A DNA stretch of 64,000 nucleotides, from NCBI RefSeq assembly GCF_016887565.1, contig NZ_CP069396.1, positions 1,701,001-1,765,000 of the forward strand, given 5' to 3'. The stretch comes from Archangium violaceum (GTDB taxonomy: Bacteria > Myxococcota > Myxococcia > Myxococcales > Myxococcaceae). Position numbers and translations under genes: made by a program. A model generated the notes under the pieces. It was not told where the DNA came from, did not search any database, and saw only the letters and a program-made list of their open reading frames with translations. Numbering within the stretch: position 1 is the first letter of the stretch; each line of letters begins with the position of its first letter. Of this stretch, positions 44,564 through 62,497 are shown one piece after another.

Positions 44564-44584
44564 GGGGCCGGGGCGAGAGGGCTC

Positions 44585-44995: not shown

Positions 44996-45102
44996 GATCG
45001 GACCTCCAGGGAGGATGCGACCAGTCTAGCGAGGGTTGGTCCGCCCGCGAGGGGTGCGACAATGGCTCTGTCGGCTGGTGGAGCGTGTTAATTTTCGACG
45101 AG

Positions 45103-46386: not shown

Positions 46387-46390
46387 CCAC

Positions 46391-46438
46391 CCATCCCCCA
46401 CCCACCCCTCTCCCTCCGGGAGAGGGACGGGGTGAGGG
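46391..46438. repeat. REP-like palindromic element
   Basis: The core CCCTCTCCC-TCC-GGGAGAGGG at 46406-46426 has a 9-bp stem, flanked by CCCACCC on the left and GGACGGGGTGAGGG on the right. It has the form of the short palindromic repeats scattered in many proteobacterial genomes and may terminate the radical SAM gene. The truncated HlyD gene reads into it. Confidence 0.65.
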
Positions 46439-46797
46439 TATCCGTTCCCGTCCAGCAGGGGAGCGCGGGTTGCGCGCTCCAGTGTCGGCGTGTCGATGAG
46501 GGCGAGCAATTGATCCTTCTCTACGACATCGCCCTCCCGCACCAGGAGGCGCATGAGCGGCCCAGCGGCCCGCGCCCGGATGTCGACCCGGTCCTTCGCC
46601 GCGACGGTCCCGTTGGCATGGACCGCTTCGACCGCCATGCCCCGCACCACCTGGACGGCGACCAGCCGCCGAGGGTGCAGCCTCCAGTAGAGGAGCCCTC
46701 CCGCCAGGATGACCCACCTTCCTCGCGGCCTGCGCTTCCATACAGCGACGCGGGCCGGCTGAGGGACATCGATGGGCAGAGCGTTGGGCATATCCAT
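46439..46797 (-). pseudogene. Truncated HlyD-type membrane fusion protein
   Basis: From ATG 46797, about 110 residues look like the start of an HlyD/MacA-type adaptor: basic N-terminus, membrane anchor (WVILAGGLLYWRL), the beta strand GTVAAKDRVDIRARAAGPL and the biotinyl-lipoyl-like hinge LLVREGDVVEKDQLLALID. The normal coiled coil and beta-barrel (about 200 residues more) are missing. After TPTLERA the frame runs into the REP-like repeat (PHPVPLPEGEG), which is not protein-derived. It follows the MFS gene on the same strand and may be its decayed partner in an EmrAB-like efflux system. Confidence 0.7.
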
Positions 46798-46948
46798 GGT
46801 CTTGGCCTGTCACGGGTGGGGGGACGCCGCGCCTGCCTTTCCGCCGGGAGCGGCCCACCTGGAACAGGAGCTGCCCCGGACCCGCTGCAATACCCCCTAC
46901 GAAATCCGCTCCGGGGGCGATGAAGTGGTTGTACGTGGCCGTGGATGG

Positions 46949-48406
46949 CTATTCTCCGCGTGAATCCCCATGTGCCTTGCCTCCAAGGGCAAGGCTGACC
47001 AGGCCGGCGGCAAGTGAGATGAGGCCCATGAAGATCCAGCCCGCGCGGAACTGCATCTCCGCCGGCTCTCCCGTCGACGGCCGGCTGAGCAGGACGATCA
47101 AGATGGCCACGCCAAGGACCCCTCCCAACTGGCGGCTCGTCACGTTCACTGCGCTGCCGACGGCAAAGCGCGCCGGCGGCAGCGCCAACATGGAGGCGCT
47201 GGAGAGCGTCGGGAAGGCCATCCCGACGCCTGCACCCATGAGCAACGAGCCAGGGAGCCAATGCCTGACGTAGGCCACCTCGGGGCCAACGCGCAGAATG
47301 AGCCAGGCGGCGCCGACCGCGAACACGACCGTGCCGGTCACCACAATCCAGCGGTGGCCGAAGCGATCCGCCAGCACTCCGGCTGGCCCTGCGACGACCG
47401 CGGCGGCGATCGGCGTTGTCGTGATGGCCAGCCCCGCGGTCAGCGGCGGGTAGTGCCAGACCGAGGTAAGGAACAGGACGTACCCGAGCAGAGCGGAGAA
47501 GAACGCCGCGGAGAACAACAGGGTCGCGAGGTTGGCGATCGTGAAGGAGCGTATCCGGAAGAGCGAGAGATCGAGCACGGGAGACGGGTGCCGCGCGCAG
47601 CGCCAGATCAGCAGCGGAAACAGCCCTATCACGCCTGCCAACGAGGCGAGCCGGCGCGGGTCGAACCAGGGATATGCGGCGCCCTGGATGATCCACAGCG
47701 CGAACAGGCCCACCGTCGCGATGGCGGCCAGCACGCCGACCAGATCGGGCCAGTGCACGGCGTCCGGGTCACGGGACTCGTCGAGGACCTTGCGGCCCCA
47801 CAGCCACGCGAAGAGCCCCACGGGCAGGTTGATGAAGAAGGCCCAGCGCCAGTTGGCCCATTCGAGTAGAGCGCTCCCCAGGATGGGCCCCAGTGCCGAG
47901 GCGAGCGCCGCGATGGCGCCCCATAACCCGATCGCAGTGGCGCGCCGCGAGACCTCGAACGCGGGAAGGAGCAACGCCAGCGATGCGGGGATGAGCGCCG
48001 CCGCCCCGATCGCCTGAAGGGCCCTGGCCGCGATGAGCAGTGATGCCGTCGGCGCGAGACCGCAGAGCCCCGATGCCAACGTGAAGAGGTTCAGCCCGAT
48101 GAAGAAGACCCGGCGCCGCCCGACGAGATCCGCCACGCGACCCGCGCTGACCAGCAGCGCGGCGAACACGATGAAGTAGGCGTTGAGCACCCAGGACAGG
48201 GCCACCTGCGTCGTGCCGGGAAAGGTGCTTTGTATCGCCGGGAAGGCGACGTTGACGATCGTCGTGTCCAGGGAGACCATGAACACGCCGAGCGACGTGA
48301 TCAGCAGAACCCTCCGCCGCTGGCTGCGCGCGGTGCGGACCCTGGGCCCGCTCACGGAGGCCGCGACAGGGGAGCCAAACGTTGTCTCAAGGCTGGGATG
48401 CTTCAC
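46949..48406 (-). CDS. MFS drug exporter, DHA2 (EmrB/QacA) family
   Basis: About 485 residues with 14 membrane segments. The DHA2 motifs are visible: FMVSLDTTIVNVAFP in helix 1, GRVADLVGRRRVF after helix 2, and GPILGSALLEWANWRWAFFINLP (motif C then D1). Such exporters use proton motive force to expel hydrophobic compounds. The GTG at 48406 is preceded by GGAGGG five bases upstream; this leaves 43 bases after the previous gene, whereas a reading from 48517 would overlap it. As the last intact gene of the cluster's left transcript it is the likely product exporter or self-resistance. Confidence 0.9.
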   Translation of the reverse strand: MKHPSLETTFGSPVAASVSGPRVRTARSQRRRVLLITSLGVFMVSLDTTIVNVAFPAIQSTFPGTTQVALSWVLNAYFIVFAALLVSAGRVADLVGRRRVFFIGLNLFTLASGLCGLAPTASLLIAARALQAIGAAALIPASLALLLPAFEVSRRATAIGLWGAIAALASALGPILGSALLEWANWRWAFFINLPVGLFAWLWGRKVLDESRDPDAVHWPDLVGVLAAIATVGLFALWIIQGAAYPWFDPRRLASLAGVIGLFPLLIWRCARHPSPVLDLSLFRIRSFTIANLATLLFSAAFFSALLGYVLFLTSVWHYPPLTAGLAITTTPIAAAVVAGPAGVLADRFGHRWIVVTGTVVFAVGAAWLILRVGPEVAYVRHWLPGSLLMGAGVGMAFPTLSSASMLALPPARFAVGSAVNVTSRQLGGVLGVAILIVLLSRPSTGEPAEMQFRAGWIFMGLISLAAGLVSLALGGKAHGDSRGE

Positions 48407-48449
48407 CGGTTCCCTCCAGCGCCAGGACGTCTCCTCGACGTCCAATGAA

Positions 48450-49637
48450 TCAGCCACGGCTGCACGCCTGGCGCCACTTGCCTCGTGGATTCCTGAACAA
48501 GGATTTAGCTGGCGCATCAGCGCTCGCTTCCATCTGCTTGTGGACTTGCTGGGTGCGATAGCGGTTCATCCACGCCCGCTGCAGCGGCAAGCTCAACCGA
48601 ACGCCCAGATTGTACCCCTTCACGTAGATGAACTGGTCCTCCAGGCGGCCTCCCATCCTCACCTTCGGCGTGTACGTTGTCTGGCCGAGGTATGAGAGGG
48701 GAATCCCGCGTTCGATGGCGCGGATGATACAATAGTAGTTCAAGACATTATAGATGACCGGGCTCTCCTCATCCGTGTAGTCGATGCCGATCCTCTTGTT
48801 CAGCTGTTGCTCCGCGTTGTAGAGGACGAGGTAGGCGCCGACGATGCGGGAGCCCTTCTCGCAAAGGACCATCTCGGAGCTCGGGGGGTGGGCGCGGCCG
48901 CACTCGACGAAGAACTGAGGAGGGAGCTCTTCCAGCTTGAACTGAGCCTTCATGTATGTGGCTCGGAAGAGCGGGTACACGTCAGGGATGAGGGAGGCGA
49001 AGTCCGTCACCACGCGCAGGGTGAAGTTCTTGCCCACCTTGCGGAGCGTCCGCCGAGCGTGGCTGCGCCCGTTCGTGCTCAGGCTCTGGATGTAGTCATC
49101 CGACGACTTGAAGTGGGTATCGATCCTCACTGTCGGCAGTGAGTAGCATTCGACGAAGCCGGCGGCGCGCACGCGCACGCGGCCCGGGAAATCCTGGTGC
49201 AGATCCTTCAGGAAGCAGACCTGGACCTTCTCCTCCCGGGCCAGGGCGTCAATCTCCCGGATCATCAATTCGATGACCGCGTCGTGGTCGCAATCAGGGT
49301 GGAGCGGGATGAAGCCCCGGTCCGAGACGAGAGAGCCGACCACCGCGATCTTGTAAGCGGCGGCGAGGCCCAGACGGTCGACGAGTGCCGGATAGCCGGT
49401 CTGAACCAGGGTCGGCATGGCGGCGGTGAACGCGATGTTCGTTCCGATATTGACCGGAATGAACGCCAGGACCCTTCCCCCCTCTTCGATGCTGAGATAG
49501 CGGATCTTGAGGTCTCCCCATAGCGAACGCTCGAGCGCCCGCAAGAGGCCGTACGAGAAATCGATCGGCGAGCCCTGCAGCGGGGCGATCCGGTCCGGAC
49601 CGATCTCATCGATTGACTGGTACACTGCGCAATGCAT
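48450..49637 (-). CDS. FemAB/GNAT-like transferase
   Basis: 395 residues. The two-part GNAT-like fold of FemAB-like proteins is suggested by ending features such as SYLGQTTYTPKVRMGGRLEDQFIYVKG and a basic middle segment (SHARRTLRKVGKNF). Members of the family transfer aminoacyl groups from aminoacyl-tRNA to amines, or acyl groups to other substrates. In the valanimycin pathway the VlmA enzyme performs a seryl-tRNA-dependent acylation of a hydroxylamine; whether this protein is a relative must be checked by search. The start is ATG 49637 with AGAGG seven bases upstream. It is divergent from the heme-oxygenase-like gene and leads the MFS exporter by 43 bases. Confidence 0.7.
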   Translation of the reverse strand: MHCAVYQSIDEIGPDRIAPLQGSPIDFSYGLLRALERSLWGDLKIRYLSIEEGGRVLAFIPVNIGTNIAFTAAMPTLVQTGYPALVDRLGLAAAYKIAVVGSLVSDRGFIPLHPDCDHDAVIELMIREIDALAREEKVQVCFLKDLHQDFPGRVRVRAAGFVECYSLPTVRIDTHFKSSDDYIQSLSTNGRSHARRTLRKVGKNFTLRVVTDFASLIPDVYPLFRATYMKAQFKLEELPPQFFVECGRAHPPSSEMVLCEKGSRIVGAYLVLYNAEQQLNKRIGIDYTDEESPVIYNVLNYYCIIRAIERGIPLSYLGQTTYTPKVRMGGRLEDQFIYVKGYNLGVRLSLPLQRAWMNRYRTQQVHKQMEASADAPAKSLFRNPRGKWRQACSRG

Positions 49638-49903
49638 GAAGCGGCCTCTTTCCAATCCGTTGCAGGAGCGCTGTCGTCTGCCTGCTGTATGGGTGAGCGC
49701 GGGCGCTGCACCGCCCAGGAAAACCTAACCTGCGTCCCCGGTCGCCGCTCCGCAAAATGGATCCACGCCATGTCGTGAGCCCGGTAGCGGTTCTAGATTG
49801 TGCGAGGAAGAGGGATTTTCGGCGAGTAAAAACATGTTGCCAATATGAGGGCCCATTTGGGAATCGCCGCCTGCTGTGTTTCAAGGACGAAGGAGTGGTG
49901 TCA

Positions 49904-50614
49904 ATGGAAGCGGATCTTGGCACGAGCAGCGCTGTGGTGACGTTCGCCGATGAGCTCGCGGCGTACATCCAGCCTTTCCGGCAGGCAGTGATCAACTGCT
50001 CCTTCCTGAGGCAAGCCGCGACGGGCTCGCTCTCGCTCAGGCATTGCCGCGCGTGGGTCTCGCAGCAGTACCATTACGTCAATCAGTTCCCGGCGTGGCT
50101 GGGCATGCTGCTGCGCAAGGTCGACAACCCCGAGTGCCGGGACGCTCTCATGATCAATCTCTACGAGGAGCGCACCCACCCGAAGCTCTGGATGCGCTTC
50201 GCAACAGCCTGGGGCTTGTCGGAAGAGCAGATCGTGACCACCGAGCTATGTCCCGAGATGCAGGCGCTCAACGACTACCTCAGCCGGCTCGCGTTCGACG
50301 GGCACGTCGCCGAGGCCGGAGCGGCGCTGTGCATGGGCCTGGAGGGCATCTCCAAGAACATCATCGAGTCCGTCGGCCCCGCCCTCTTCCAATACTACAA
50401 CGGGCGCGAAGGCGTGGCGCTCGACAAATCCTCGCTGGCGTGGCTGACGGTGCACTCCGACGTCGACCCGCAGCACGTCCACGAGGGCGCGCTCCTGGTC
50501 AATCGCTATGCCACGACCCCCTCGGTGCAGGCCAAAGCGAAGTTCGCCGCTCGTCGCGCGCTCGAGTTCCTCCAGTTGGGGTTCGACGGTGTTCATCGCC
50601 GCTACGGCGCCTGA
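49904..50614 (+). CDS. Heme-oxygenase-like diiron oxidase (HDO/TenA-like)
   Basis: 236 residues, all-helical, of the heme-oxygenase-like fold. Candidate metal ligands are Glu88/Glu89 and His92 (YEERTH), Glu147 (GLEG), and a His/Asp cluster near His184, Asp188, His191 and His193 (HSDVDPQHVH). That is the pattern of HDO enzymes such as UndA, SznF and RohS, which N-oxygenate amines or cleave C-C bonds, rather than of heme degraders or thiaminases. In this cluster a role in N-hydroxylating the alkylamine, or in chain desaturation, is plausible. ATG 49904 has AGGAG eight bases upstream. It is the only cluster gene on the plus strand, divergent from the FemAB-like gene. Confidence 0.75.
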   Translation: MEADLGTSSAVVTFADELAAYIQPFRQAVINCSFLRQAATGSLSLRHCRAWVSQQYHYVNQFPAWLGMLLRKVDNPECRDALMINLYEERTHPKLWMRFATAWGLSEEQIVTTELCPEMQALNDYLSRLAFDGHVAEAGAALCMGLEGISKNIIESVGPALFQYYNGREGVALDKSSLAWLTVHSDVDPQHVHEGALLVNRYATTPSVQAKAKFAARRALEFLQLGFDGVHRRYGA

Positions 50615-50851
50615 CGAGCGCGGGGGAGGGCTGTCGAAATCGGAGGTGTATGCGATAACGAAGATGAAATGATTTAGATCTGGTGCCGCGGCATGCGGCT
50701 TTACTGGATTGATCCTCTTCTTGTGCGGCACCGTGGGAATCAAAACCGGCCGCGGTCCCGCCTGGCCAGCGCGGTCTCGTACCAAGGTCGCCCCGATGTA
50801 GATGAGGAGCGCCGCGGGGAGGTAGATCATGGTCACATCCTTGAGCCCGCC
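50615..50851. other. AT-richer gap with small hairpin
   Basis: 237 bases between convergent genes. A 5-bp stem (GCCGC-ggcat-GCGGC then TTT, about 50685-50702) is a weak terminator. On the minus strand a reading from 50836 starts with a hydrophobic stretch (MIYLPAALLIYIGATLV) but continues antisense into the HDO gene. I see no real gene. Confidence 0.4.
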
Positions 50852-51724
50852 TCACGCCGACTTCCCGAGCTTCTCGAGAAACCACTTCGCTGTCTCCTCC
50901 CAGGTCGGTTGCGATCGGTGGCTCAACACAAGCGACATGTGTGTCGCGGCTGAGACGCTCTTGAGAGTGTGGTCGGGGACGGGCGCCAGGTAGCGCTCGC
51001 AGCACTCTCTGAGACAGAGGAGGTCGTCCTTCTCGCCAACATAGGCCAGCACCGGCTGCCGGACCCGGGCTCGACCGGCCAGGTAATCGGCGCCATCGGA
51101 TTCGCGGAGGCAGCGGTCGGTCGCTGCCCAGCGATTGAAGTCGGCGACGAGCCCGAGCGCTTCATCGTCGGTGCCTGTGCGCATGAGGCGGGCGGGGTAA
51201 TGGCCAACCGTCCGGCTCACCAGGAGCCAGAGGGCCAGCAGGGTGCGCTTCTTGAACCAGCGCAGACGGGAGGGGTCGAAGCTTGGCACCCACACATTCG
51301 CCGCATAGAGCACGAGCGCGTCCACGGGGGCGTCCGGGTGCTGGCCAAGCCAGTGCAGGGCGGCATGCCCGGCCAAGCTGTGTCCGAGGACGCCGAGCCG
51401 GAGATCGGGGTGGCGGGCGCGCGCCCATGCCACCACGGCAGGCAGGTCGTGGTTGACGAGATCGTCGTAGGTCCACCGGCCGCCCGCCCCAGCAGTGGCG
51501 CCGCTCTGGCCGTGCCCACGGAAGTCGAATGTGTAGACATGCAGCCCAGCCATGGCGAGCGCGCTGGCGAGCCCCTTGCCCGGCGGACGGTCGAGGGTCG
51601 ATCGGTTGCACATCATCGCGTGACCCAGGACGACCACGCCGCGCGCATCACCGATCGCGGGAAACTCGGAGGCCGCCAGCATGAAGTCGCTCGTCGTGCG
51701 GATCCGATGTACTTGCTCGTTCAT
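50852..51724 (-). CDS. Alpha/beta hydrolase
   Basis: 290 residues with the alpha/beta-hydrolase fold: oxyanion region VVVLGHAMM, strand 4-5 TFDFRGHGQSG, nucleophile Ser in LGHSLAGHAA, an acidic residue in YVGEKDDLLCLREC, and a late His (SAATHMSLVL). The substrate is unknown; thioesterase, esterase or amide hydrolysis in the cluster are all possible. ATG 51724 has GGAG seven bases upstream. It is probably the last gene of the main cluster operon, 24 bases after the flavoprotein gene. Confidence 0.85.
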   Translation of the reverse strand: MNEQVHRIRTTSDFMLAASEFPAIGDARGVVVLGHAMMCNRSTLDRPPGKGLASALAMAGLHVYTFDFRGHGQSGATAGAGGRWTYDDLVNHDLPAVVAWARARHPDLRLGVLGHSLAGHAALHWLGQHPDAPVDALVLYAANVWVPSFDPSRLRWFKKRTLLALWLLVSRTVGHYPARLMRTGTDDEALGLVADFNRWAATDRCLRESDGADYLAGRARVRQPVLAYVGEKDDLLCLRECCERYLAPVPDHTLKSVSAATHMSLVLSHRSQPTWEETAKWFLEKLGKSA

Positions 51725-51748
51725 GAATAACTCCACACTTCTACAATT

Positions 51749-52879
51749 CTACAGCTTATTGAGCGGCTCACCGGCAAGGTAACCCGCGAGCGCGGCGCCG
51801 CTGCTGAGCCGCGATGGCGGATGGAACGCCAGCGCGCGGGAGGCCCCCATGAGGTAAGCCACCTCGGGCGAGCTGATGAATGCCATTCCACCCAACACCT
51901 CGGCCGCGAGCATGGTCGCCCGTTCGATGGCCGACTGCACTGCATAGCGCACGAGGAGCGCCCGGGGCAGGAGCTCCGGCTTGGGCTCGCCCATCATCGA
52001 GCGCGCGACGCTCTCGAGCGCCTCCATTGCCGCCTCGACCTCGATCCCCAGGAGGGTCCGCTCCGTGGCCCCGCCCTTGCCGGCGACGATGACGCGCTCG
52101 ACCAGGCCGCTGGCGGTGCCGAGGTAGGAAGCTGTGACGAGCAGCTGGAACCACAGGTAGCCTGCGACTTCGACCGAATCGAGGTGGTCCTCGGCGTCCG
52201 GAAAGAACAGGCAATCCCCGGGGATCGGCACGTCGTTGAGGATCACCTCGTCGCTCTCGGCGCCCGTGATGACAGAGCTCCGCCAGAACGGTCGGCGCTC
52301 GAGGCCAGGAGAGTCCGCGGGGACGAGCACGACCGCCCTGCGCGAGCCCCCGCCCGAGGGATTCTGGATCATGACGCTCGCGCTCAGCAGATCCATCGAG
52401 TACGTGAGCGAGCACGGCTTCTTGCTTCCGCTGATGAGATAGCCCCCGTCGGGCGTCGCCCGTGCCTGCATCGTCGCGGCGAGGATGTGCGCGCCGCTGC
52501 GGCCCTCGGCGAAGCCCGAGGCCATGAACAGGTTGTCCTCCGCGATGGCGGAGAGCACGGCGGCGCCCGAATCATCGGCACCAAAGACGCCAAACTCCAC
52601 CAGCGTCGCGATCGAGAAGTTGTGCATGGTCGCCACCACCGCCAGAGAGGGTGAGCGGCTTCCGAGGGCGCGTTGAACGCGCACGGCCTGCAGCGGAGTG
52701 GCTCCTTTGCCGCCCAGGTCGCGTGGGATGACGAGGGCAGGCCCTCCGGCCGCCCGGAACAGGCTGATGCAGGGATTGCCCGGGCGCTCCAGCTCCGCCA
52801 GGGGAATCGCCGCCAGTGTTTCATCCAGGCCGGGAAGCAACTCGGCCAACGTTGCTCGTTCTCTCTCCAAGAGGCCCAT
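51749..52879 (-). CDS. Acyl-CoA dehydrogenase-fold flavoprotein
   Basis: 376 residues with acyl-CoA dehydrogenase landmarks: mixed helical N-terminus, FMASGFAEGRSGAHILAATM and YLISGSKKPCSLTYSMDLL in the beta-barrel, and the C-terminal helical bundle ending in AEVLGGMAFISSPEVAYLMGASR. This fold also houses class D flavin monooxygenases (the isobutylamine N-hydroxylase VlmH, DszC) that use reduced flavin from a partner. I cannot tell by eye which chemistry applies; in an alkylamine pathway either N-hydroxylation or desaturation of the chain fits. No separate flavin reductase is in the window. AAAGGTG precedes the ATG by six bases. Confidence 0.83.
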   Translation of the reverse strand: MGLLERERATLAELLPGLDETLAAIPLAELERPGNPCISLFRAAGGPALVIPRDLGGKGATPLQAVRVQRALGSRSPSLAVVATMHNFSIATLVEFGVFGADDSGAAVLSAIAEDNLFMASGFAEGRSGAHILAATMQARATPDGGYLISGSKKPCSLTYSMDLLSASVMIQNPSGGGSRRAVVLVPADSPGLERRPFWRSSVITGAESDEVILNDVPIPGDCLFFPDAEDHLDSVEVAGYLWFQLLVTASYLGTASGLVERVIVAGKGGATERTLLGIEVEAAMEALESVARSMMGEPKPELLPRALLVRYAVQSAIERATMLAAEVLGGMAFISSPEVAYLMGASRALAFHPPSRLSSGAALAGYLAGEPLNKL

Positions 52880-52885
52880 GGATGT

Positions 52886-53995
52886 TCACCTTTCAATCAC
52901 AGCATGAGGTCCACCCGGGATGAGCCTCATGGCGATCGAGCGCGCGGAGACGGCGTCAAGGACCCGTGCCAGGAACGCGTCGGGAGGCGGACAGGTGACG
53001 CCGAGCGGCTCAAGCAGGTTCCTGGCCAGAAAACCGTCGAACACGCTTCGCTGGTGGAGGTAGGGCTTGAGTGAGCTCCAGCGACCGGGAAACGCCGCCA
53101 CCCGGCCGAAGCTCAAGCGGCTGAGCAGCCGCGCTAGGGACGCCAGGAGTGGAGGCAGAAACCCGAGCTGGGCGGTGCGGCAACGGGTCTGCACCATCTC
53201 GACCAGCTCCCGCAGCGTCCAGGACTTCTCCCAGCCTGCGACGAGGTGGCACGTCCTTCCGGCGGCCCCCGGGTGGTCTGCCAGGGCCACCGCTCCCTCG
53301 GCCAGATACTCCATGGGAATGACGTCCACGCGGATGCGCGGATCCCCCGAGACCAGGATTCGCCACCCGCCGAGCAACGATTGAATGACGGATTCGAGCG
53401 TCATCGTCCCCGCGGTGACTCCGCGCTGGGGCCCGCCCAGGGCCAGGCTTCGCCTGACCACGGTGACCCGCCCGGAGATGGAGGAGTCCCGTAGAAGGCG
53501 CTCCGCCTCGTGTTTGCTCTGCTCGTAGGCGTTGTAGAAGCCCTGCCCGCAATCCAGATCGAACTCCGTGAACAGGCCCCTCTTCGTCCCCGCGACCCAA
53601 GTGGTCGACAAGTGGACGAGCCGGGCGCCGCGAGCCTTCTCGAGCAGCGCGATCAAGGTGCGCACCGGCTGGACGTTCCCCTCCCGCGCCTTCTCGAGGT
53701 CCTGGTCGATTTCAGCTCGCTCGGCGCAGTGGAAGATGGTGTCGACGGTGGCGCAGAGATCGTCGAACGCCCATTCGTCCAGCCCGAGCCGGGGAAGCCG
53801 CACGTCGCCCGAGAGAGGCAGCACCTCCTGGGCCTTCGCCGCCGCGGAGGAGCGGGCGCTTGCCAGGGAGGGCGGCGGGCTCGCCACGCCCTGCGAGAGC
53901 AGGTAGATGCGGGCGATGTCGTGCCTCTCCACCAGGAGCTCGAGGACTTGAGCTCCCACGGCGTTGGAGGCGCCGGTGAGCAGTACGTTTTTCAT
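52886..53995 (-). CDS. NAD(P)-binding SDR, thioester-reductase-like
   Basis: 369 residues: Rossmann motif TGASNAVG at the N-terminus, an extended short-chain dehydrogenase catalytic pair Tyr-x3-Lys (NAYEQSKHEAE), the strand VHLSTTWVAGTKRG, and a C-terminal helical region typical of NAD_binding_4 (thioester reductase/male-sterility) members. It would reduce an acyl thioester, or oxidise or reduce an alcohol on the product. The ATG at 53995 is best because AAGGG lies six bases upstream; an ATG at 54001 overlaps the upstream stop (ATGA). Tightly packed, six bases before the flavoprotein gene. Confidence 0.8.
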   Translation of the reverse strand: MKNVLLTGASNAVGAQVLELLVERHDIARIYLLSQGVASPPPSLASARSSAAAKAQEVLPLSGDVRLPRLGLDEWAFDDLCATVDTIFHCAERAEIDQDLEKAREGNVQPVRTLIALLEKARGARLVHLSTTWVAGTKRGLFTEFDLDCGQGFYNAYEQSKHEAERLLRDSSISGRVTVVRRSLALGGPQRGVTAGTMTLESVIQSLLGGWRILVSGDPRIRVDVIPMEYLAEGAVALADHPGAAGRTCHLVAGWEKSWTLRELVEMVQTRCRTAQLGFLPPLLASLARLLSRLSFGRVAAFPGRWSSLKPYLHQRSVFDGFLARNLLEPLGVTCPPPDAFLARVLDAVSARSIAMRLIPGGPHAVIER

Positions 53996-53997
53996 GC

Positions 53998-54993
53998 TCA
54001 TCCCTTGAAGGATATGGATGAAAAGCCCTGGCCGGCCGCATTGGCGGGCATGAGCCCCATGTAGGCGAGCCGTGTCCTCTGCATCGCGCCCGCCCATTCC
54101 ATCTGGAGCTCGAGTCGCTCCTCCACACCGGTGTCGATAAGCCGCCTGCCCCGGACGATCTCGTAGTCCTTGAGGAACTCCGCGTGCTCCTGGATCCCCT
54201 GCTGAAACAACACTTCGCGACGCACGATGACATCGCGGATCGGCACCGTCTTCCAGAGTTCCATCCCCTGGCCGACCAGGGCGAGGAGGCGGGGGCGATC
54301 CTCCGGGTGCTTCAGGAGGTGGTCTCGTATGATGGCGCTGCCGACGCAAAGATGGCGGACCTCGTCGATGTTGGCGCCTCGGGCGGTCTGCGCTGCCGGC
54401 GGGTCGAGGAGCCTCCACTTGCGCTCGCTCAACTCCGACGCGGGGGCGAGCACACCCTCCACGATGACGGTCAACATCAGGACGCCGACGATGAAATCGT
54501 CCCGCCCTCCCACCGTGTCGAGGGCGAACTTCTCGAGCGGCACGAGCACGCTGTCGCGCTTGTCCCCCACGAATTCATCGATGAGCTTGGGGACGTCACT
54601 CTCCGCGATACCCAGATCGACAAGGTGACGGCGGAACACCGCGGCGTGGCGCGCCTCGTCGAGCAATTGTGTGGCGTAGAAGTCCATCGTGGCCGCGGTC
54701 GGCGCCGTGCGGACAAGATGAGTGATCGCGCGCGTGCCCATCTCCTCGGAGACGGTTCGAAAGGCGAACTCTTCCAGGATGGCGGACCGCAGCGGGCCAG
54801 GTTCAAGGAGGTATGGAGGGACGGTTGCGTCGGGCAGATGCCCATGAACCTGGCCGAGCAGCGTCCCCTGGACCACCGCCTGCAGCCAGTATTCCATGCC
54901 GCACTCGTCCGGAGTGAGCTCCAGCTTCATGGACCCTTCGAGGAGGTCGGGCGCTGCCTCCCAGTCAGTCTCGTTGCCGGTGGATATATTCAT
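53998..54993 (-). CDS. Ferritin-like diiron oxygenase
   Basis: 331 residues, helical. Candidate diiron ligands form two Glu-x2-His pairs, Glu113/His116 (DEARH) and Glu211/His214 (DEVRH), plus Glu83/84 and Glu179, the pattern of ferritin-like oxygenases such as the AurF and VlmB-type proteins. Such enzymes oxidise nitrogen centres; in the valanimycin pathway the VlmB protein (with VlmO) is linked to the azoxy step. The start at ATG 54993 (MNISTGN) has AAAGAGGTG eight bases upstream. Its stop overlaps the SDR start region. The neighbour upstream encodes a small membrane protein that may be its partner. Confidence 0.8.
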   Translation of the reverse strand: MNISTGNETDWEAAPDLLEGSMKLELTPDECGMEYWLQAVVQGTLLGQVHGHLPDATVPPYLLEPGPLRSAILEEFAFRTVSEEMGTRAITHLVRTAPTAATMDFYATQLLDEARHAAVFRRHLVDLGIAESDVPKLIDEFVGDKRDSVLVPLEKFALDTVGGRDDFIVGVLMLTVIVEGVLAPASELSERKWRLLDPPAAQTARGANIDEVRHLCVGSAIIRDHLLKHPEDRPRLLALVGQGMELWKTVPIRDVIVRREVLFQQGIQEHAEFLKDYEIVRGRRLIDTGVEERLELQMEWAGAMQRTRLAYMGLMPANAAGQGFSSISFKG

Positions 54994-55061
54994 GAAGAAA
55001 ACACCTCTTTCTTGTATCCAATGACAGGCGAGCGGTCTCCGATCGGCAGGCTCGCCGCCGT

Positions 55062-55526
55062 CTACCACCGTCCCTTTTTCTTGTACTCAGCCAGGAACCG
55101 TTGGAAGTCCTTGAAGGTTACTGGCTCGAACGAGAGCCCGAGGGGCTTGTAGATGTTGCCAAAGAGCGCTCGATCCCCGCAGAGGTGAATGGGGGCGGCG
55201 AGCATCGCCCACTCCCAGCCACCGTGAAGCACGACCCACACCAGCGTCACGACCACGTTGGTCCCGACGCTGTGGCAGGTGTTGTAAAGAAAATAAAATA
55301 TCGGGTGGATGCTGCGGTGCTCACCGGAGCGGCGCAAGTAGTAGACGTAATAGGCTGGGAGCACGCCCACCAGATCGATCCAGGCAAAGGCGATCACGAA
55401 CGGCAACCACCGCACCTCCCTCGCGTGGACCAGCACCAGCGTGCTGCAGAAGATGAGGAGGACGAGGTAATCCAGGCGCACCAGATTGTAGGTCGCTCGG
55501 GTATGAAATGTATTGTGCTTGTCCAT
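55062..55526 (-). CDS. Small polytopic membrane protein
   Basis: 154 residues with four hydrophobic segments (about 17-36, 40-62, 76-99, 103-119). Conserved-looking polar residues lie near or within the membrane (NTCHS, IHLCGDR, EHRSIHP), which suggests a metal, heme or catalytic role. No family recognised by eye. It lies between the megaenzyme and the diiron protein and is probably functionally linked to the latter; the pairing recalls VlmB with the membrane protein VlmO. The start is ATG 55526 with GGAG five bases upstream. Confidence 0.7.
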   Translation of the reverse strand: MDKHNTFHTRATYNLVRLDYLVLLIFCSTLVLVHAREVRWLPFVIAFAWIDLVGVLPAYYVYYLRRSGEHRSIHPIFYFLYNTCHSVGTNVVVTLVWVVLHGGWEWAMLAAPIHLCGDRALFGNIYKPLGLSFEPVTFKDFQRFLAEYKKKGRW

Positions 55527-55551
55527 GCGAGCTCCAATCTGAGTTTGAATC

Positions 55552-58500
55552 TCAGGGATGGCTGTTGGCGACCTTCGGGGGCCATGTCGTGCGCGTCAAG
55601 GCGGCAACCTTGAATCCATGCAGATCGGCGAGCTGGCGCATGAGCCTGAGCCCCGCCACGTCGATGTTCGCGCCGAGGCTCATGTGGGCGTACCGCTGCT
55701 CCAGGGCCAGCATCATCGTCTCGGCCATGCACGCATAGGTCAGGCCCGGATCCAGATCGAAGCTCCCGATGTCGGGCCTCCCTGGGATCTCGATCACGCC
55801 GCCGTCGATGACCAGGACGTCGGGCCGCGCCTCCTGGACCTCCCGGCCCACATTCCTCGGACGAGAGAGATCGCACACCAGCGCGTTCTGTCCCAGGTGG
55901 TGGGGCTTCACGAGGGCTGTGGTGGCGTTCGTGGCGAGGATCACGACATCCGCGAGCGGGAGGACCTCGCCCATGCCGTAGGCAACCAGGAAGAGGCCAT
56001 CACGCTCCATCTGCTCTGCCATGACCGTGAGCTCTTCTTGCGACAAGTCGGGGGACCGCAGGAGTCCTGAGGTCAGCATCCTGTGCGCCAGAGTGCCTCT
56101 GCGAAACACGACGTTGCGGCTCGCCTCGACGGCGAGGTAGCGGCACGCCTCCCCGGCGACGCGGAGGAGCTGGCTCCGGCTATGCTCCTTGCCGTGGAGC
56201 GGGTTGCCAATGAGGATCAGCAGGGAGGCGTCCTCCGCCATGAGGATCGCCGTGGCGCGTCCGATCGCGCCGGCAGCGCCGACAACAGCCACGGCCGGCG
56301 CGGTGACCTCCGGGCGCCAGGTACGCTGAGCCAGGCGCACGCCCTCCAGCGCTGACACCGCGGTGAATGTGTTGCCGGTGGTCACGGCGACGTCGCTCTC
56401 CGCCACCGTCAAGCCACCGTGGGTCACGATCGACGTGAAGGCCCCCAGCCCGACGATTCGAGCCCCGCGCCCGCGAGCGAGCTCCACGGCGCCACGCACC
56501 TCCTTCGCGGCAGCCTCGCGAGGCATCGCCATCAGCTCGTCAGCGGTGCGCCTGACGAGGATGAACTCGCCATAGGCGGAGCGCCCACTCTTCGCCACGA
56601 TCCGGGTCTCGCCCACGATCGCGGGCTTGCCCGTGCCGTGAACGATCTTGGCCGCGTTCTCCAGATCCGCGGCGCCAACCGTGGCCAGCGTGGAGTCGAA
56701 GCTGGCGTAGCTGCGCAGATCGAGTGGGTGCAGGATGAAGGCGAAGCGACCCTCGTCTGGGCGTGGCTGGATCGGCGCACGGGGCATGGTGCGCGCCATG
56801 ACCTCCGGCGCGCTTCGCGGAGCTCTGCTCAGGATCGAGCCGAGGACCCGGCCCGTGTCTCCCGTGTCGAACACCGCGAGGGCCCGCTCGAGCGCGCCGA
56901 GCACGACCTCACACTGCTGCCATGTGGCCGTGAGCGGAGGCTCGATGCGTAGGACGTCGGTGCTGTTCAGCGTCGGGGCGATGCGCACGCCCTCGACGTT
57001 GAGGAGATAGCTGGCGAAGATCGGCGCGAGGCCGCCCTCCTCGGCGGCGAGAGCGAGGATGCTCGACGGCCAGGTCCGACGATTGACGCCGAGCTGGATG
57101 CCGAGGAAATAGCCCCGCCCGCGGATCTGGCTGATCAACCTCGGATAGCGGCGCTGTAACTCGAGCAGCGCGCCCTTGAGCCGGGCTCCGTTCTCCGCGA
57201 CCTGCTTGACCAGGGCGAAGTTGTCTCGCTCCAGGAGCTCGAGCGTGGCCAGCCCCGCCTCGCAGGCCAGCGTGCCTCCAGCGAACGTGGACGAATGCTT
57301 GAGCGCGAAATCCTCGCTGTAGGCTTCCTCCGAAGAAATGCAGGCGCCTATGGGAAACAGCCCCCCGCCGAGCGCCTTGGCCAGCGCCATTACGTCCGGC
57401 TCCACGCCTTCCGCGCTGCTCGCGAAGAGCGTCCCCGTCCGGCCGAGCCCGGTCTGGACCTCGTCGAAGACCAGGAGCACCCCCGCCTCCCGGCAGAGCT
57501 TCTTGGCTGCGGCGAGATAGCCGACCGGCGGTTCGACAATGCCCCCCTCGCCTTGAATCGGCTCCACGACGAAAGCCGCATAATAGGCGGGCCTCTCCAG
57601 GAGAGCGTCCCGGAGCGCCTCGATATCCCCGAAGGGTATGCCGTGGAAGAACGGTACCGGCGCGCCGAAGTTGTGCTGGTATCTGGCGTTCCCGGTGGCG
57701 GACAGCGCGCCCAGGGTCTTGCCGTGGAAGCTGCCGGCGGTGGACAGGATCCCGAGGCGCCCCGTGTTGGTGCGGCACAGCTTGATCGCGGCCTCCACCG
57801 CCTCGGTGCCGCTGTTGGCGAACGTGACGTACCGCAGCCCCGAGGGTGCCACGCCGATGAGGCGGCGTGCCAACTCTCCCGCGGAGGCGAGCAGCGAGGG
57901 CTGGACGAAGCCGGGCTTCTCGCTCTCCCTGGCCGCGAGCAGCGCCGCCCAGAGCTCCTTCGGGTTGTGGCCAAAGGGAAGCGCGCCGTACGAGGCCACG
58001 AAATCGAGGTAGTGCCGTCCCTCCGCGTCATACAGGTCACAGCCCGAGCCGCGGACGAAGCTCTTGTCGAGCTTGAACCGCTCGAGGAGCTTGCTCAGGT
58101 ACGGATTGAGGTACTCTGTATAGGGATGCCGGCGCGCCTCGGACGGGGCGAGCTCCCGGGTGTGATGGTGAGGGCGCCCCATCGAGACCGGCTCTCCCGC
58201 CAGATGGCGGGCCATGAGATCGATCGTCGGGAACTCCCAGATTAGCGTCGCCGGGATGGGGCGATCCAGAAAGGTCTCGAGCTCTCCGGCCAGCAGGGCC
58301 GCCTCCACCGAGTCGAGCCCGAGGTCTGTGAGGCGCGATGTGCGCTCGATGTGCGTCGTCGGAAGGCCGAAGCCATGGCTCACATAATCGATGAGCCATC
58401 GCTCGATCTCCGCTGCCGTCTTGCCCGCGGTGGTCGTGCCAACCTCTTCATTCCGCGGCGCCGGCTCCCGAGCGGCGGCCCCCGTCAGCGCGCTCCGCGC

Positions 58501-60261
58501 GATCTCGCTCAGCGTTCCGGCGAGGAATCCCTCTCGGCAGGCGCCCCGCTGGATCTTCCCGCTGGACGTCTTGGGGATGGTGCCCGGCATGATGAGCACG
58601 ATGTTGTCGACCCGGATCTCGTGGACCTCGGCGATTGCTCGCTGGATCGCAAGCAGGGCCTCCTGGGTGTCCCCGTCTCCATCGACTCCCTTGGCAAGCT
58701 CCGCCACCACCACGAGCCGTTCAGACTCCGCTCCTTTCGGGTTCGTTCGTGGCTGGGATTCCAGGGAGAATGCGGCGCAGCAGCCGCGCCGGATCCGCGG
58801 ATGGCAGCTCTCCACGGTCGCCTCGATGTCCTGAGGATGGTGGTTGCGGCCACGAATGATGACGAGATCCTTGAGCCGCCCGGAGACGATGAGCTCGCCG
58901 TCGTGGAGGAACCCGAGATCTCCGCTGCGCAGGAACTTCCGCCCGTCGTGGTGCGCCGGCGTTGAAACCAGCTCGGCATGGAACGTCGCGCTCGTCTCCT
59001 CGGAGCGGCCCCAGTAGCCTCGCGCCACACTCGGGCCCGAGATCCAGATCTCGCCGATCTCGTGCTCGCCGCAAAGGGTACCGGAGTCTGGGTTGACGAC
59101 GACCACCTCGAACCCGGGGCCTGCGGCGCCGGAGCCGACGAGCTCGATGCGCTCCACTGCGTCAGGTGACACGGCGACGGCGCGCTTCTGCTCGTAGGCG
59201 GGCTTGCTGAAGGAGTGCACTCGAAAGCCAGTCTTCCTCGAGGCGCCCGTCACGAAGAGCGTAGCCTCCGCCAATCCATAGCAGGGGAAGAAAGCCTGGC
59301 GGTCGAACCCGCAGGAGCCAAACGTCTCCGCGAACACGTCGAGGGTCCGCTCGCGGATGGGCTCCGCGCCCACGAACGCCACTTCGAGACAACCGAGGTC
59401 GAGCGTGGCCCGCTGCTCCTCCGAGACCTTGCGGGAGCAAAGCTCGTACGCGAAGTTCGGTCCCCCGGTCACGGTGACGCGATGGCGCGAGATGGCGCTG
59501 AGCCAGGAAAAAGGACGGCGCATGAAGTGCATCGGAGACATCAGGACGAGCGGCGCGCCCACATAGATGGGGACGAGGATCGAGCCGATCAGCCCCATAT
59601 CGTGGTAAGGCGGCAGCCAGCTGGCGACCCGATCTTTATCGCTCATGCCGAAGCAGCGGCGCATCACCTCCAGGTTCTCCACCAGGTTGCCGTGGGTCAG
59701 CATCACCCCTCTCGGGTCGCGCGTGGTCCCGGAGGTGTACTGCAGAAACGCCAACGACGACTCCGTCAACTCAGGCCCGACGTAGCTGCGCTCCGCGCCG
59801 TCGATCGAGTCGGTGGCGACCCACTGCGGCGCGCCGAACTCGTTGTCTCCGAGGAAGAGCTGCTCCGCCATGGCCAGGATTGACGATGTCGTGAGGGCCA
59901 GCGTCGGCTGTGAGTCCTTCAGGATGGACTTGAGCCGGGGCAGGGTTCGCTCGAGGCGAGTCGGGTCGGGTGGATACACCGGCACCGCGACCAGCCCGGC
60001 ATAGAAGCAGCCAAAGAACGCGATGATATAATCCAGGCCCGCAGGATAAAGCAGGAGGGCCCGATCGCCGGGCGCGGCGAGGCCTTGCAGGATGGAAGCT
60101 GTCGCGCGCGCGCGCCGATCCAGCTCACCGTACGTGATATGCGCCTCCTGGCCGTCGCCTTCCTCGAGGAACGTGCACGCGACCCTGTCGACCTCGGTGA
60201 GGGCTCTGCGTTTGACGACATCGACCAGATTCTGCGTCGAATGAAAATCAGTCTGCATCAT
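55552..60261 (-). CDS. Tetradomain enzyme: fatty acyl-AMP ligase, ACP, class III aminotransferase, acyl-ACP reductase
   Basis: About 1569 residues in four parts. (1) Fatty acyl-AMP ligase, about 1-600, with the FLQYTSGTTRDPRGVMLTHG P-loop and QAFFPCYGLAEATLFV. (2) Acyl carrier protein, about 605-690, carrier Ser651 in LGLDSVEA. (3) Class III aminotransferase, about 700-1150: YDAEGRHYLDFVASYG, FANSGTEAVEAAIKL, VFDEVQTGLGRTG, and PLP Lys962 in LAKALGGG. (4) Acyl-ACP reductase of cyanobacterial AAR type, about 1175-1569: GLGAFTSIVTHGG, TTGNTFTAVSALEG, Rossmann VVGAAGAIGRATA, and thioester Cys1511 in YACMAETMM. Predicted sequence: fatty acid, acyl-AMP, acyl-ACP, aldehyde, primary alkylamine. The start is ATG 60261 or 60258; no good ribosome site. 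Confidence 0.9.
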   Translation of the reverse strand: MMQTDFHSTQNLVDVVKRRALTEVDRVACTFLEEGDGQEAHITYGELDRRARATASILQGLAAPGDRALLLYPAGLDYIIAFFGCFYAGLVAVPVYPPDPTRLERTLPRLKSILKDSQPTLALTTSSILAMAEQLFLGDNEFGAPQWVATDSIDGAERSYVGPELTESSLAFLQYTSGTTRDPRGVMLTHGNLVENLEVMRRCFGMSDKDRVASWLPPYHDMGLIGSILVPIYVGAPLVLMSPMHFMRRPFSWLSAISRHRVTVTGGPNFAYELCSRKVSEEQRATLDLGCLEVAFVGAEPIRERTLDVFAETFGSCGFDRQAFFPCYGLAEATLFVTGASRKTGFRVHSFSKPAYEQKRAVAVSPDAVERIELVGSGAAGPGFEVVVVNPDSGTLCGEHEIGEIWISGPSVARGYWGRSEETSATFHAELVSTPAHHDGRKFLRSGDLGFLHDGELIVSGRLKDLVIIRGRNHHPQDIEATVESCHPRIRRGCCAAFSLESQPRTNPKGAESERLVVVAELAKGVDGDGDTQEALLAIQRAIAEVHEIRVDNIVLIMPGTIPKTSSGKIQRGACREGFLAGTLSEIARSALTGAAAREPAPRNEEVGTTTAGKTAAEIERWLIDYVSHGFGLPTTHIERTSRLTDLGLDSVEAALLAGELETFLDRPIPATLIWEFPTIDLMARHLAGEPVSMGRPHHHTRELAPSEARRHPYTEYLNPYLSKLLERFKLDKSFVRGSGCDLYDAEGRHYLDFVASYGALPFGHNPKELWAALLAARESEKPGFVQPSLLASAGELARRLIGVAPSGLRYVTFANSGTEAVEAAIKLCRTNTGRLGILSTAGSFHGKTLGALSATGNARYQHNFGAPVPFFHGIPFGDIEALRDALLERPAYYAAFVVEPIQGEGGIVEPPVGYLAAAKKLCREAGVLLVFDEVQTGLGRTGTLFASSAEGVEPDVMALAKALGGGLFPIGACISSEEAYSEDFALKHSSTFAGGTLACEAGLATLELLERDNFALVKQVAENGARLKGALLELQRRYPRLISQIRGRGYFLGIQLGVNRRTWPSSILALAAEEGGLAPIFASYLLNVEGVRIAPTLNSTDVLRIEPPLTATWQQCEVVLGALERALAVFDTGDTGRVLGSILSRAPRSAPEVMARTMPRAPIQPRPDEGRFAFILHPLDLRSYASFDSTLATVGAADLENAAKIVHGTGKPAIVGETRIVAKSGRSAYGEFILVRRTADELMAMPREAAAKEVRGAVELARGRGARIVGLGAFTSIVTHGGLTVAESDVAVTTGNTFTAVSALEGVRLAQRTWRPEVTAPAVAVVGAAGAIGRATAILMAEDASLLILIGNPLHGKEHSRSQLLRVAGEACRYLAVEASRNVVFRRGTLAHRMLTSGLLRSPDLSQEELTVMAEQMERDGLFLVAYGMGEVLPLADVVILATNATTALVKPHHLGQNALVCDLSRPRNVGREVQEARPDVLVIDGGVIEIPGRPDIGSFDLDPGLTYACMAETMMLALEQRYAHMSLGANIDVAGLRLMRQLADLHGFKVAALTRTTWPPKVANSHP

Positions 60262-60356
60262 GGCCACTTGTTTCTGATCAGGCGTTTCTCATATCCAAAC
60301 AGCCATGGCTGGGCGACCTGGGGCCATCGCCGATAAATAAGAGCAGAATCGATGCT

Positions 60357-60821
60357 TTAGCCCTCAGCGCGACCGAACCGGTGCTCGACACGATCCAGGA
60401 ACTTGCCGATATCCTTCCTGACCTCGCGCGCGACGATCGGCTTGAAGAGCTTGGCCATCAGGTTGGTAATGGGCAGATCGGGGGCGAGCATCTCACGGAA
60501 GCGGATCTCGGTGTTCGGCGCGTCCAGCTGGCGCAGGATGACTTCGCCCTGGGTATCAAGATTCCCGTCGATCGTGCGCCATGTCACGTGGTCGGTGCCG
60601 TTGCCGTGGTACTCGACAGTATAGTCAGCCAGGTAGCGGATCCCCTTCTCGACCTTCTCGGTGAGGATCCAGTGCGCCCTGTTGCCCTCGAGAAGCTCAA
60701 ACCGCTCGACATCGGCGGTTTCCTCCTTGATGAGCCCGGGATCATTGAAAAACTGATAGACGTCTTTCAGCGGCGACCGAACCCGCAAGGTACGTTCCTC
60801 GGTAGCTACGATTTTCGTCAT
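60357..60821 (-). CDS. SRPBCC (START-like) lipid/polyketide cyclase-type protein
   Basis: 154 residues with the START/SRPBCC pattern: N-terminal strand, DVYQFFNDPG helix, and a long C-terminal helix (VAREVRKDIGKFLDRVEHRF). Such small proteins bind hydrophobic ligands or catalyse cyclisation and dehydration. It is the first gene of the main cluster operon, 95 bases before the megaenzyme. It could hold the alkyl-chain intermediate; function not readable. Confidence 0.75.
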   Translation of the reverse strand: MTKIVATEERTLRVRSPLKDVYQFFNDPGLIKEETADVERFELLEGNRAHWILTEKVEKGIRYLADYTVEYHGNGTDHVTWRTIDGNLDTQGEVILRQLDAPNTEIRFREMLAPDLPITNLMAKLFKPIVAREVRKDIGKFLDRVEHRFGRAEG

Positions 60822-61240
60822 GGGGTCCGTCCTCGATTCTTACTGCTGGGTTGTTGGTTGAAAACACCAGCTCCCATTCCGTGTGCGCACTCAGAGAGAG
60901 CAGGCCTCGGATGAATGTGATTGGTGAGCTGCCCATGTCCGCCCGACCCCCTCGTCGAGCCTCTCCCACGAGCGGGCGTGTGTCTGCCTGGTGACCGAGC
61001 ACCTTTATCGGCTACCAGGGCGAGCGCCTCGGCGAGGTGCGCTCGAGACGGCTCGCCGAGCTACGCGGTGACGGAAGGATGGAAGGCCTGTTGAGGGGGG
61101 CGGGCTGGAGCGCAGGGGCCCGAGGAGGGCCGCTGACAGGGGCCGCCCGAGCAGTGCGCCCGGTCGGTGGAGCCGGATCTCCGGATTCGCCCAGGGTTCG
61201 TGGGGCCACGCTATCAGGACGGCTAGTGTGCGGGCCCACG
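60822..61240. other. 419-base divergent gap at right edge of the cluster
   Basis: No convincing gene. The left part (60830-60890) is AT-richer and likely contains the cluster operon promoter. A 9-bp inverted repeat (CTCGGCGAG at 61028-61036, CTCGCCGAG at 61052-61060) may be a hairpin. No -24/-12 site was seen. Confidence 0.5.
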
Positions 61241-62497
61241 ATGCGCTTCAAGTTCGTCCACGCGGCCGATCTGCACCTGGATACTCCGTTCCGCGGCATC
61301 CCCGCGGACTCGAGTCTGTTGAGCCTCTTCCAACAGGCCACGTTCCGGGCCTTCTCGCGCGTGGTGGACCTGTGCCTGCGCGAGCACGTGGCCTTCCTGC
61401 TGCTGGCGGGAGACCTCTTCGACGCGAAGGACCGCTCGGTGCGCGCGAGGTTGGCACTGCGGCGCGAGCTGGACCGGCTGCACGTGGCTGGCATCCAGAC
61501 CTTCATCGTCCACGGGAACCATGACCCGCTGAGCGGAGACACGGGGGCGCTGGGGCTGCCGGGCTCGGTGAAGGTCTTCGGCGCCGACTGGGAGGAGGTG
61601 GAGGTGCGCCGCGAGGGGAGGGCGCTCTGCCGGGTGCAGGGCATCTCCTATCCGGAGGTGGAGGTGCGCGAGAACCTGTCGTCGCGCTTCCGGCGGACGG
61701 CACCGGACTTCACGGTGGGCCTGCTGCACGCGAACCTGGGCGGAGTGGAGGGCCATGCCAACTACGCGCCGTGCACGGTGGAGGACCTGGGGGCGCGCGG
61801 GCTGGACTACTGGGCGCTGGGCCACGTGCACACGCGGGCCGAGTACGCGCTCGCCAACGGAGCGGTAGCGGTGTACCCGGGCAACCCGCAGGGGCGGCAC
61901 GTGAACGAGCCGGGTGAGCGCGGCTGCGTGCTGGTGGAGGTGGAGGAGGGGAGGACGCGCAGGCGCTTCGTCCCGGTGGACCGGGTGCGCTGGCACCGGC
62001 TGGAGGTGCCGCTCGTGGGGCTCGGGTCACTGGATGGGCTCGTGGCGGCGGTAACGGAGCAGGTGGACGCGAGCTGCGCGCAGGAACTGGACGGGCACGT
62101 GGTGCGTCTCACGCTGACGGAGCGGGGCCCGCTGCACCGCGAGCTGTCCCGGCCGGAGGCGCTCCAGCAGTTGGAAGCGGACCTGCGCGAGCAGCTCTCG
62201 CGGCGTCACCCGCCGGTGCTGCTGGAGTCCCTGCGCGACGCGAGCCGGCCCGAGTTGGACCTCCAGACGGTGCGACTGGCGGGAGGCTTCACCGGGACGC
62301 TGCTGGCCGAGGCCGACGCCCTGGCCGCGGACCCGGAGGCGTTGGAGACGGTGTGGAAGGAGGACGCGGAACTGCGCTCGCTGCGCCAGCGCTTGTCGCG
62401 GCTGGGCGTGGACGCGCTGGAGAAACCCCGGCCGGAGTGGGTGGAGCAGGCGGGGCTGCGGGTGGTGGAGCAGCTCCACGAGGAGGACGAGACGTGA
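61241..62497 (+). CDS. SbcD/YhaO-type DNA repair metallophosphoesterase
   Basis: 418 residues. The calcineurin-like phosphoesterase core has HAADLHLDTPF, LLLAGDLFDAKD, VHGNHDPLSG and LGHVHTR, the five dimetal motifs of Mre11/SbcD exonucleases. The length and C-terminal partner-binding part fit YhaO-like proteins, which pair with a YhaN-type AAA protein; the next gene, overlapping by four bases, encodes one. ATG 61241 starts the conserved region; the frame is open upstream. Probable role: DNA end processing in repair. Confidence 0.88.
   Translation: MRFKFVHAADLHLDTPFRGIPADSSLLSLFQQATFRAFSRVVDLCLREHVAFLLLAGDLFDAKDRSVRARLALRRELDRLHVAGIQTFIVHGNHDPLSGDTGALGLPGSVKVFGADWEEVEVRREGRALCRVQGISYPEVEVRENLSSRFRRTAPDFTVGLLHANLGGVEGHANYAPCTVEDLGARGLDYWALGHVHTRAEYALANGAVAVYPGNPQGRHVNEPGERGCVLVEVEEGRTRRRFVPVDRVRWHRLEVPLVGLGSLDGLVAAVTEQVDASCAQELDGHVVRLTLTERGPLHRELSRPEALQQLEADLREQLSRRHPPVLLESLRDASRPELDLQTVRLAGGFTGTLLAEADALAADPEALETVWKEDAELRSLRQRLSRLGVDALEKPRPEWVEQAGLRVVEQLHEEDET

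Follow-up and report, generated by a model that had tools for sequence, protein, structure and literature searches.

An acquired cassette in Archangium violaceum with homologues of VlmO and VlmB and a predicted aliphatic azoxy lipid product

Gene content and genomic site of the cassette

The window (the whole stretch of 64,000 nucleotides that was analysed) lies at 1.701–1.765 Mb of the 13.2-Mb, single-contig genome of Archangium violaceum. The following features were assigned within it:

46454..61183, no strand: acquired cassette holding all cassette genes (empty site in sister species, lower GC)
46949..48517, minus: EmrB-type MFS efflux pump (TIGR00711, 266.9 bits, cut-off 230.2)
48450..49655, minus: FemAB-like GNAT protein, which may stand in for VlmA as an aminoacyl-tRNA-dependent transferase (PF04339, PF13480)
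49757..50614, plus, divergent: haem-oxygenase-like dimetal oxidase of the CADD/TenA/UndA family (PF14518, E=7e-23; CADD 8va9/1rcw, UndA 6p5q)
50852..51736, minus: alpha/beta hydrolase (Hydrolase_4, E=6e-20)
51749..52879, minus: VlmH homologue, putative flavin-dependent alkylamine N-hydroxylase with an acyl-CoA dehydrogenase fold (VlmH homology)
52886..54001, minus: SDR of thioester-reductase type (NAD_binding_4, E=4e-30; TIGR01746, E=3e-27, below its cut-off)
53998..54993, minus: VlmB homologue, putative ferritin-like diiron azoxy synthase, 331 aa from ATG 54993 (homology to VlmB-like proteins, diiron ligand set)
55062..55526, minus: VlmO homologue, putative membrane hydrazine synthase, 154 aa (homology, four invariant residues, four-helix model)
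55552..60267, minus: FAAL-ACP-class III aminotransferase-acyl-ACP reductase, 1571 aa, predicted to act as a fatty-amine synthase (Pfam AMP-binding, PP-binding, Aminotran_3)
60357..60821, minus: small SRPBCC-like protein, which might serve as a lipid carrier or chaperone (weak profile match only)

The order on the minus strand is SRPBCC-like protein, 1571-aa multidomain protein, VlmO homologue, VlmB homologue, SDR, VlmH-type flavoprotein and alpha/beta hydrolase. From the multidomain gene to the hydrolase gene the ORFs are nearly contiguous, with gaps of 25 and 68 bp, a 4-bp overlap (ATGA) of the SDR start with the stop of the VlmB homologue, and gaps of 6 and 12 bp. Beyond the hydrolase lie the divergent haem-oxygenase-like oxidase and then, again on the minus strand, the genes for the FemAB-like protein and the EmrB-type pump. 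A preliminary description of this DNA had pointed to adjacent genes for a diiron and a membrane protein, and both proved to be real genes which are neighbours on the minus strand.

The cassette represents a 14.7-kb insertion (about 46454–61183) with a GC content of 64–68% against about 70%, and its insertion as a unit is, like the operon order, directly observed. In sister species G005 the matches to window positions 44500–46453 and 61184–64000 lie only 35 bp apart, and in sister species G003 the site is likewise empty. G001 and G002 carry different DNA of about 5–6 kb at the same site, and VlmO was absent from all five sister species in which it was sought. The edges of the insertion (window 46381–46453 and 61073–61172) lie at short sequences which are dispersed many times in genomes of the genus. 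With its edges at such dispersed sequences and with different inserts in G001 and G002, the site looks like an insertion hotspot. The efflux pump, the FemAB-like gene and the second dimetal oxidase are counted as part of the cassette mainly because they lie inside the same insertion as the VlmO/VlmB pair; the pump probably provides self-resistance or export.

The diiron protein is a VlmB homologue

The reading frame of the diiron gene is open as far upstream as 55068. An AGAGGTG ribosome site precedes ATG 54993 (M26), homologues of the protein start at this position, and ATG 54993 is the likely start codon. Direct comparison with annotated VlmB-like proteins from azoxy-type clusters of Streptomyces gave 47–50% identity, and the PDB entries named "Putative VlmB homolog" (6d9f, 8wvr) were matched with E=8e-90. 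Pfam returned AurF only (E=0.065). Beyond VlmB itself, the profile of the family extends to R2-like ligand-binding oxidases and the small subunits of ribonucleotide reductase, and by these sequence matches the protein belongs to the ferritin-like superfamily. The wording of one review, which refers to VlmB as "heme-like" (PMC11705231), is unsupported by the ferritin-like matches.

The two DExRH pairs noted in the preliminary description are present as D137-E-A-R-H141 and D235-E-V-R-H239. They form part of a set of residues (E108, D137, E138, H141, E204, D235, E236 and H239) which is invariant in all 57 VlmB sequences, that of the window included, and the carboxylate/histidine diiron ligand set is thus complete. 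On its sequence the protein is a clear VlmB homologue, for which conversion of a hydrazine to an azoxy group is predicted. The second dimetal oxidase (49757–50614) was also considered as the VlmB of the cassette and was rejected, as it has a CADD/TenA fold and gave no blastp match to VlmB.

The membrane protein is a VlmO homologue

A Pfam search with the 154-aa membrane protein gave no hit. It is 40–44% identical to the proteins in the VlmO position of three annotated Streptomyces clusters. In the published account, as reviewed, mutagenesis of VlmO identified D51, H82, H110 and D114 as essential, metal-binding residues (PMC11705231). The window homologue has D51, H85, H114 and D118 with near-identical spacing, and these four are invariant in 87 of 87 VlmO sequences, again including that of the window. 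The cysteines vary, C84 being present in 1/87 and C116 in 36/87, so that of the His, Cys and Asp residues singled out in the preliminary description the first and last are conserved and the cysteines are not.

The protein has hydrophobic segments and is predicted to be a small multi-helix integral membrane protein. Its AF2 model (mean pLDDT 78.6) contains long helices at 10–33, 40–66, 75–101 (kinked) and 106–121, in line with the four helices expected earlier, with D51 in helix 2, H85 at the kink of helix 3, and H114 and D118 in helix 4. A fold search of the PDB with this model found no convincing relative, which says nothing on the novelty of the fold. In a phylogenetic tree the window VlmO was placed on a long branch without support.

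According to the same review, VlmO is a membrane hydrazine synthase, an enzyme in its own right whose product is passed to VlmB (PMC11705231). By analogy the window homologue is assigned as a hydrazine synthase acting upstream of the VlmB step and not as an accessory subunit, and a physical interface between VlmB and VlmO is unnecessary for function. The link to VlmB and VlmO made in the preliminary description is thus upheld by homology, catalytic residues and gene context, and the similarity to both proteins which it proposed to look for was found, far beyond chance. Its view of a membrane partner of a soluble diiron enzyme holds for the pairing; the word partner is too weak, because VlmO is its own enzyme, a hydrazine synthase which feeds VlmB. 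Nor is the pairing unusual, as had been thought, since the pair was characterised in work from 2023 onwards and is widespread among Actinomycetota.

The VlmO/VlmB pair in other genomes

A tblastn search of plasmids with the membrane protein detected 13 relatives, 11 of them in Streptomyces. The Streptomyces neighbourhoods contain genes annotated as VlmB-like, DUF2156 (VlmA), acyl-CoA dehydrogenase family (VlmH) and flavin reductase (VlmR). The locus of Streptomyces sp. NBC_00212 also encodes a seryl-tRNA ligase, MmgE/PrpD and a PLP decarboxylase, which are likewise part of the valanimycin set. It should also be noted that a 24-kb Pseudoalteromonas plasmid (L007, 13777–14214) carries a lone VlmO-like gene (34% identity) with VlmB, VlmH and VlmA not nearby. 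A scan of a genome collection with the VlmO alignment, from which the best 80 of 232 relatives were taken, gave nearly exclusively Actinomycetota together with five Paraburkholderia/Burkholderia loci.

Within the stretch examined around 86 distinct other VlmO loci (row L093 duplicates L003), VlmB was found in 56, VlmH in 79, VlmA in 78 and a VlmR homologue in 55. Wherever both genes are present in these loci (56 of 56), VlmB and VlmO share a strand, and in 50 of the 56 they are less than 1 kb apart. The 72 VlmO loci longer than 14 kb (drawn from L004 and the genome-collection loci L012–L091) include 27 with VlmB absent nearby. A DadA-like FAD oxidase occurs in 8 of these 27 and a class I methyltransferase in 10, against none of the 45 loci with VlmB in either case, and VlmO may feed oxidations other than that of VlmB.

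In the phylum survey VlmO was found in 2 of 195 genomes, namely that of the window and G010. Contig 147 of G010 (L110, about 4.8–11.8 kb) encodes an aminotransferase-reductase protein, VlmB, VlmO, a VlmA-type DUF2156 protein and a diacylglycerol-kinase-like gene (compare VlmJ), with the VlmB, VlmO and VlmA-type genes consecutive. Judged by its genes, this locus gives the bacterial family of the window another cluster of azoxy type.

Other enzymes of the cassette

The C-terminal region of the 1571-aa protein matches acyl-ACP reductases (6jzq, and PigE 4ppm), with TIGR04058 below its cut-off. For PigE there is evidence for both thioester reduction and aldehyde transamination (PMC8341465). From the FAAL, ACP, aminotransferase and reductase domains, conversion of a fatty acid to an aldehyde and then to a primary amine is predicted. 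Relatives of the FAAL and of the ACP-aminotransferase-reductase part, split in two proteins, adjoin VlmO in Paraburkholderia. The VlmH homologue is 42–44% identical over its full length to the VlmH-position proteins of three Streptomyces clusters. The metal motif of the second dimetal oxidase was located as E137ExxH141 ... H233xxxD237xxH240, and the SRPBCC-like protein showed a weak profile match (P=0.009) to an SRPBCC protein of 62 related loci.

Absence of VlmA and VlmR and the FemAB-like protein

A VlmA profile gave no match among 10 window proteins. Proteins with the PF09924 (DUF2156) domain, 23–30% identical to VlmA, are encoded elsewhere in the genome, far from the cassette. There is no VlmR flavin reductase among the cassette genes, and a single VlmR query of the whole genome found none, which is a weak negative.

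The likely, though unproven, replacement for VlmA is the FemAB-like protein, the best candidate. PF04339 was detected in five of five members of its family and PF13480 in four of five, and VlmA itself resembles FemABX transferases in sequence and structure (PMC12945691). A profile comparison of the two by hhalign was colinear and weak (probability 6.7%, P=0.0055) and is not significant. The single-sequence AF2 model of the FemAB-like protein (pLDDT 35) was uninformative, and a PDB search with a five-sequence profile gave chance matches only. In sister species G001 a FemAB-like relative directly follows an aminotransferase-acyl-ACP reductase protein; this locus (L109, 4.9–14.5 kb) continues with a LodA-type oxidase, a catalase-like protein and a P450, and VlmO and VlmB are absent from it. 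On plasmid p1 of Streptomyces sp. BHT-5-2 (L112, 1.6–10.1 kb) a FemAB-like gene is adjacent to genes for an NRPS, a class III aminotransferase and an SDR. FemAB-like relatives also occur in rhizobial lipid operons.

Proposed pathway and alternatives

It is considered probable (about 0.82) that an aliphatic azoxy lipid is the product of the cassette, formed by the logic of valanimycin and azodyrecin. For azodyrecin there is precedent for a fatty aldehyde, an amine, N-hydroxylation and a tRNA-dependent ester (PMC9379638). All of the reactions are inferred, as are the length of the chain, the identity of the amino acid and what the FemAB-like protein and the second oxidase do. The pathway would begin with the loading of a fatty acid by FAAL-ACP. 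The acyl-ACP reductase and aminotransferase domains would convert the fatty acyl group to a fatty amine, which the VlmH homologue would hydroxylate to an alkylhydroxylamine. An amino acid would then be attached through the hydroxylamine oxygen by a GNAT transferase (in all probability the FemAB-like one of the cassette is a candidate for this), the membrane VlmO would rearrange this ester to a hydrazine, and the diiron VlmB would oxidise the hydrazine to an azo and then an azoxy group. The SDR, hydrolase and second dimetal oxidase presumably tailor the product, specific reactions not being predicted for them, and the MFS pump would export it.

The lack of a VlmA homologue and of VlmR in the cassette counts against the azoxy-lipid reading. 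A fuller version of it, in which a FemAB-type transferase replaces VlmA in loading the hydroxylamine and is fed by the single FAAL-ACP-aminotransferase-reductase protein while the second dimetal oxidase tailors the chain beside the N-N group, is put forward tentatively, at somewhat under even odds. A less probable arrangement is that the pair works as VlmO/VlmB with the ester made by a chromosomal DUF2156 protein, the FemAB-like protein acylating the amine or a late product. The DUF2156 protein at 1.30 Mb, which is about 30% identical to VlmA, the presence of the FemAB-like family in rhizobial lipid operons and the non-significant FemAB-like/VlmA profile comparison all favour this arrangement. 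However, the transferase is encoded in the cluster in 78 of the 86 other VlmO loci, the FemAB-like gene lies inside the insertion and beside amine-making enzymes in two other genomes, and the resemblance of VlmA to FemABX enzymes (PMC12945691) speaks for the FemAB-like protein.

It is improbable that the product is N-N-bonded and non-azoxy (a hydrazine, hydrazone or azo compound) or that VlmB carries out some other N-oxidation. The 27 of 72 longer VlmO loci without VlmB indicate that the hydrazine step can stand alone, and a related AurF-type diiron enzyme forms diazo groups (PMC13061610), but the VlmB homologue here has all the ligand residues and its nearest relatives are in azoxy-type clusters. 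That the two genes are neighbours by chance, one encoding a ferritin-like oxygenase of no special kind and the other a small membrane protein unrelated to it, could be argued from Pfam, which names neither (AurF at E=0.065 for the first, nothing for the second). The homology to VlmB and VlmO, the invariant catalytic residues and the pairing in more than 50 other loci already refute it, and its probability is negligible.

Comparison with known systems

The cassette and the valanimycin system (Shi et al. 2023, reviewed in PMC11705231) have homologous VlmO and VlmB enzymes with the same essential or ligand residues, and VlmH is found in both. It differs in lacking VlmA, VlmR and VlmL, in an amine predicted to come from a fatty acid instead of valine, and in the extra haem-oxygenase-like dimetal oxidase. 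With the azodyrecin clusters of Streptomyces (Ady/Azd; PMC9379638) it shares, by prediction, a fatty-acid-derived amine, N-hydroxylation and azoxy formation of VlmO/VlmB type; those clusters have a separate dehydrogenase and aminotransferase, the VlmA-like Ady7 and a desaturase, whereas VlmA is missing from the cassette, which has a FemAB-like protein and a single FAAL-ACP-aminotransferase-reductase protein.

Paraburkholderia loci (for example P. phymatum pBPHY01, L004) are similar in encoding FAAL and ACP-aminotransferase-acyl-ACP reductase beside VlmO and VlmH, but there VlmA is present, VlmB is absent within the stretch read, and FAAL stands as a protein of its own. PigE of prodigiosin biosynthesis (PMC8341465) likewise unites an acyl-thioester reductase and a class III aminotransferase, although in reversed domain order, with no FAAL or ACP, and in another pathway. 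By its description, the cyanobacterial nocuolin A cluster (PMC5333925) also has FAAL-ACP, aminotransferase, acyl-ACP reductase, N-monooxygenase and AurF-like proteins and yields an N-N lipid; it is a larger PKS/NRPS hybrid, and VlmO/VlmB homologues are not described there.

Significance of the arrangement

The VlmO/VlmB enzyme pair itself is already known. The combination of a fused fatty-amine synthase, VlmB, a FemAB-like protein and an extra dimetal oxidase with no VlmA or VlmR is new within the loci sampled, since homologues of the FemAB-like protein and the second oxidase were found in none of the other VlmO loci compared and the acyl-ACP reductase domain occurred only in six Paraburkholderia/Burkholderia loci, all without VlmB. 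By its gene complement the cassette truly belongs to the VlmO/VlmB azoxy cascade, here arranged in a new way, and an aliphatic azoxy lipid is the predicted product.

Azoxy natural products are rare and bioactive. No myxobacterial azoxy pathway was found in the open-access literature, which is weak evidence as subscription papers were mostly outside its scope. A published genome survey covered actinobacteria and searched by VlmA/VlmH pairs (PMC9379638), a strategy that would miss this cassette because it lacks VlmA. The present locus is an indication of azoxy lipids in Myxococcota, supplies a predicted fatty-amine synthase of compact design, and presents, in testable form, a VlmO-type hydrazine synthase that would be supplied by an aminoacyl transferase of another kind.
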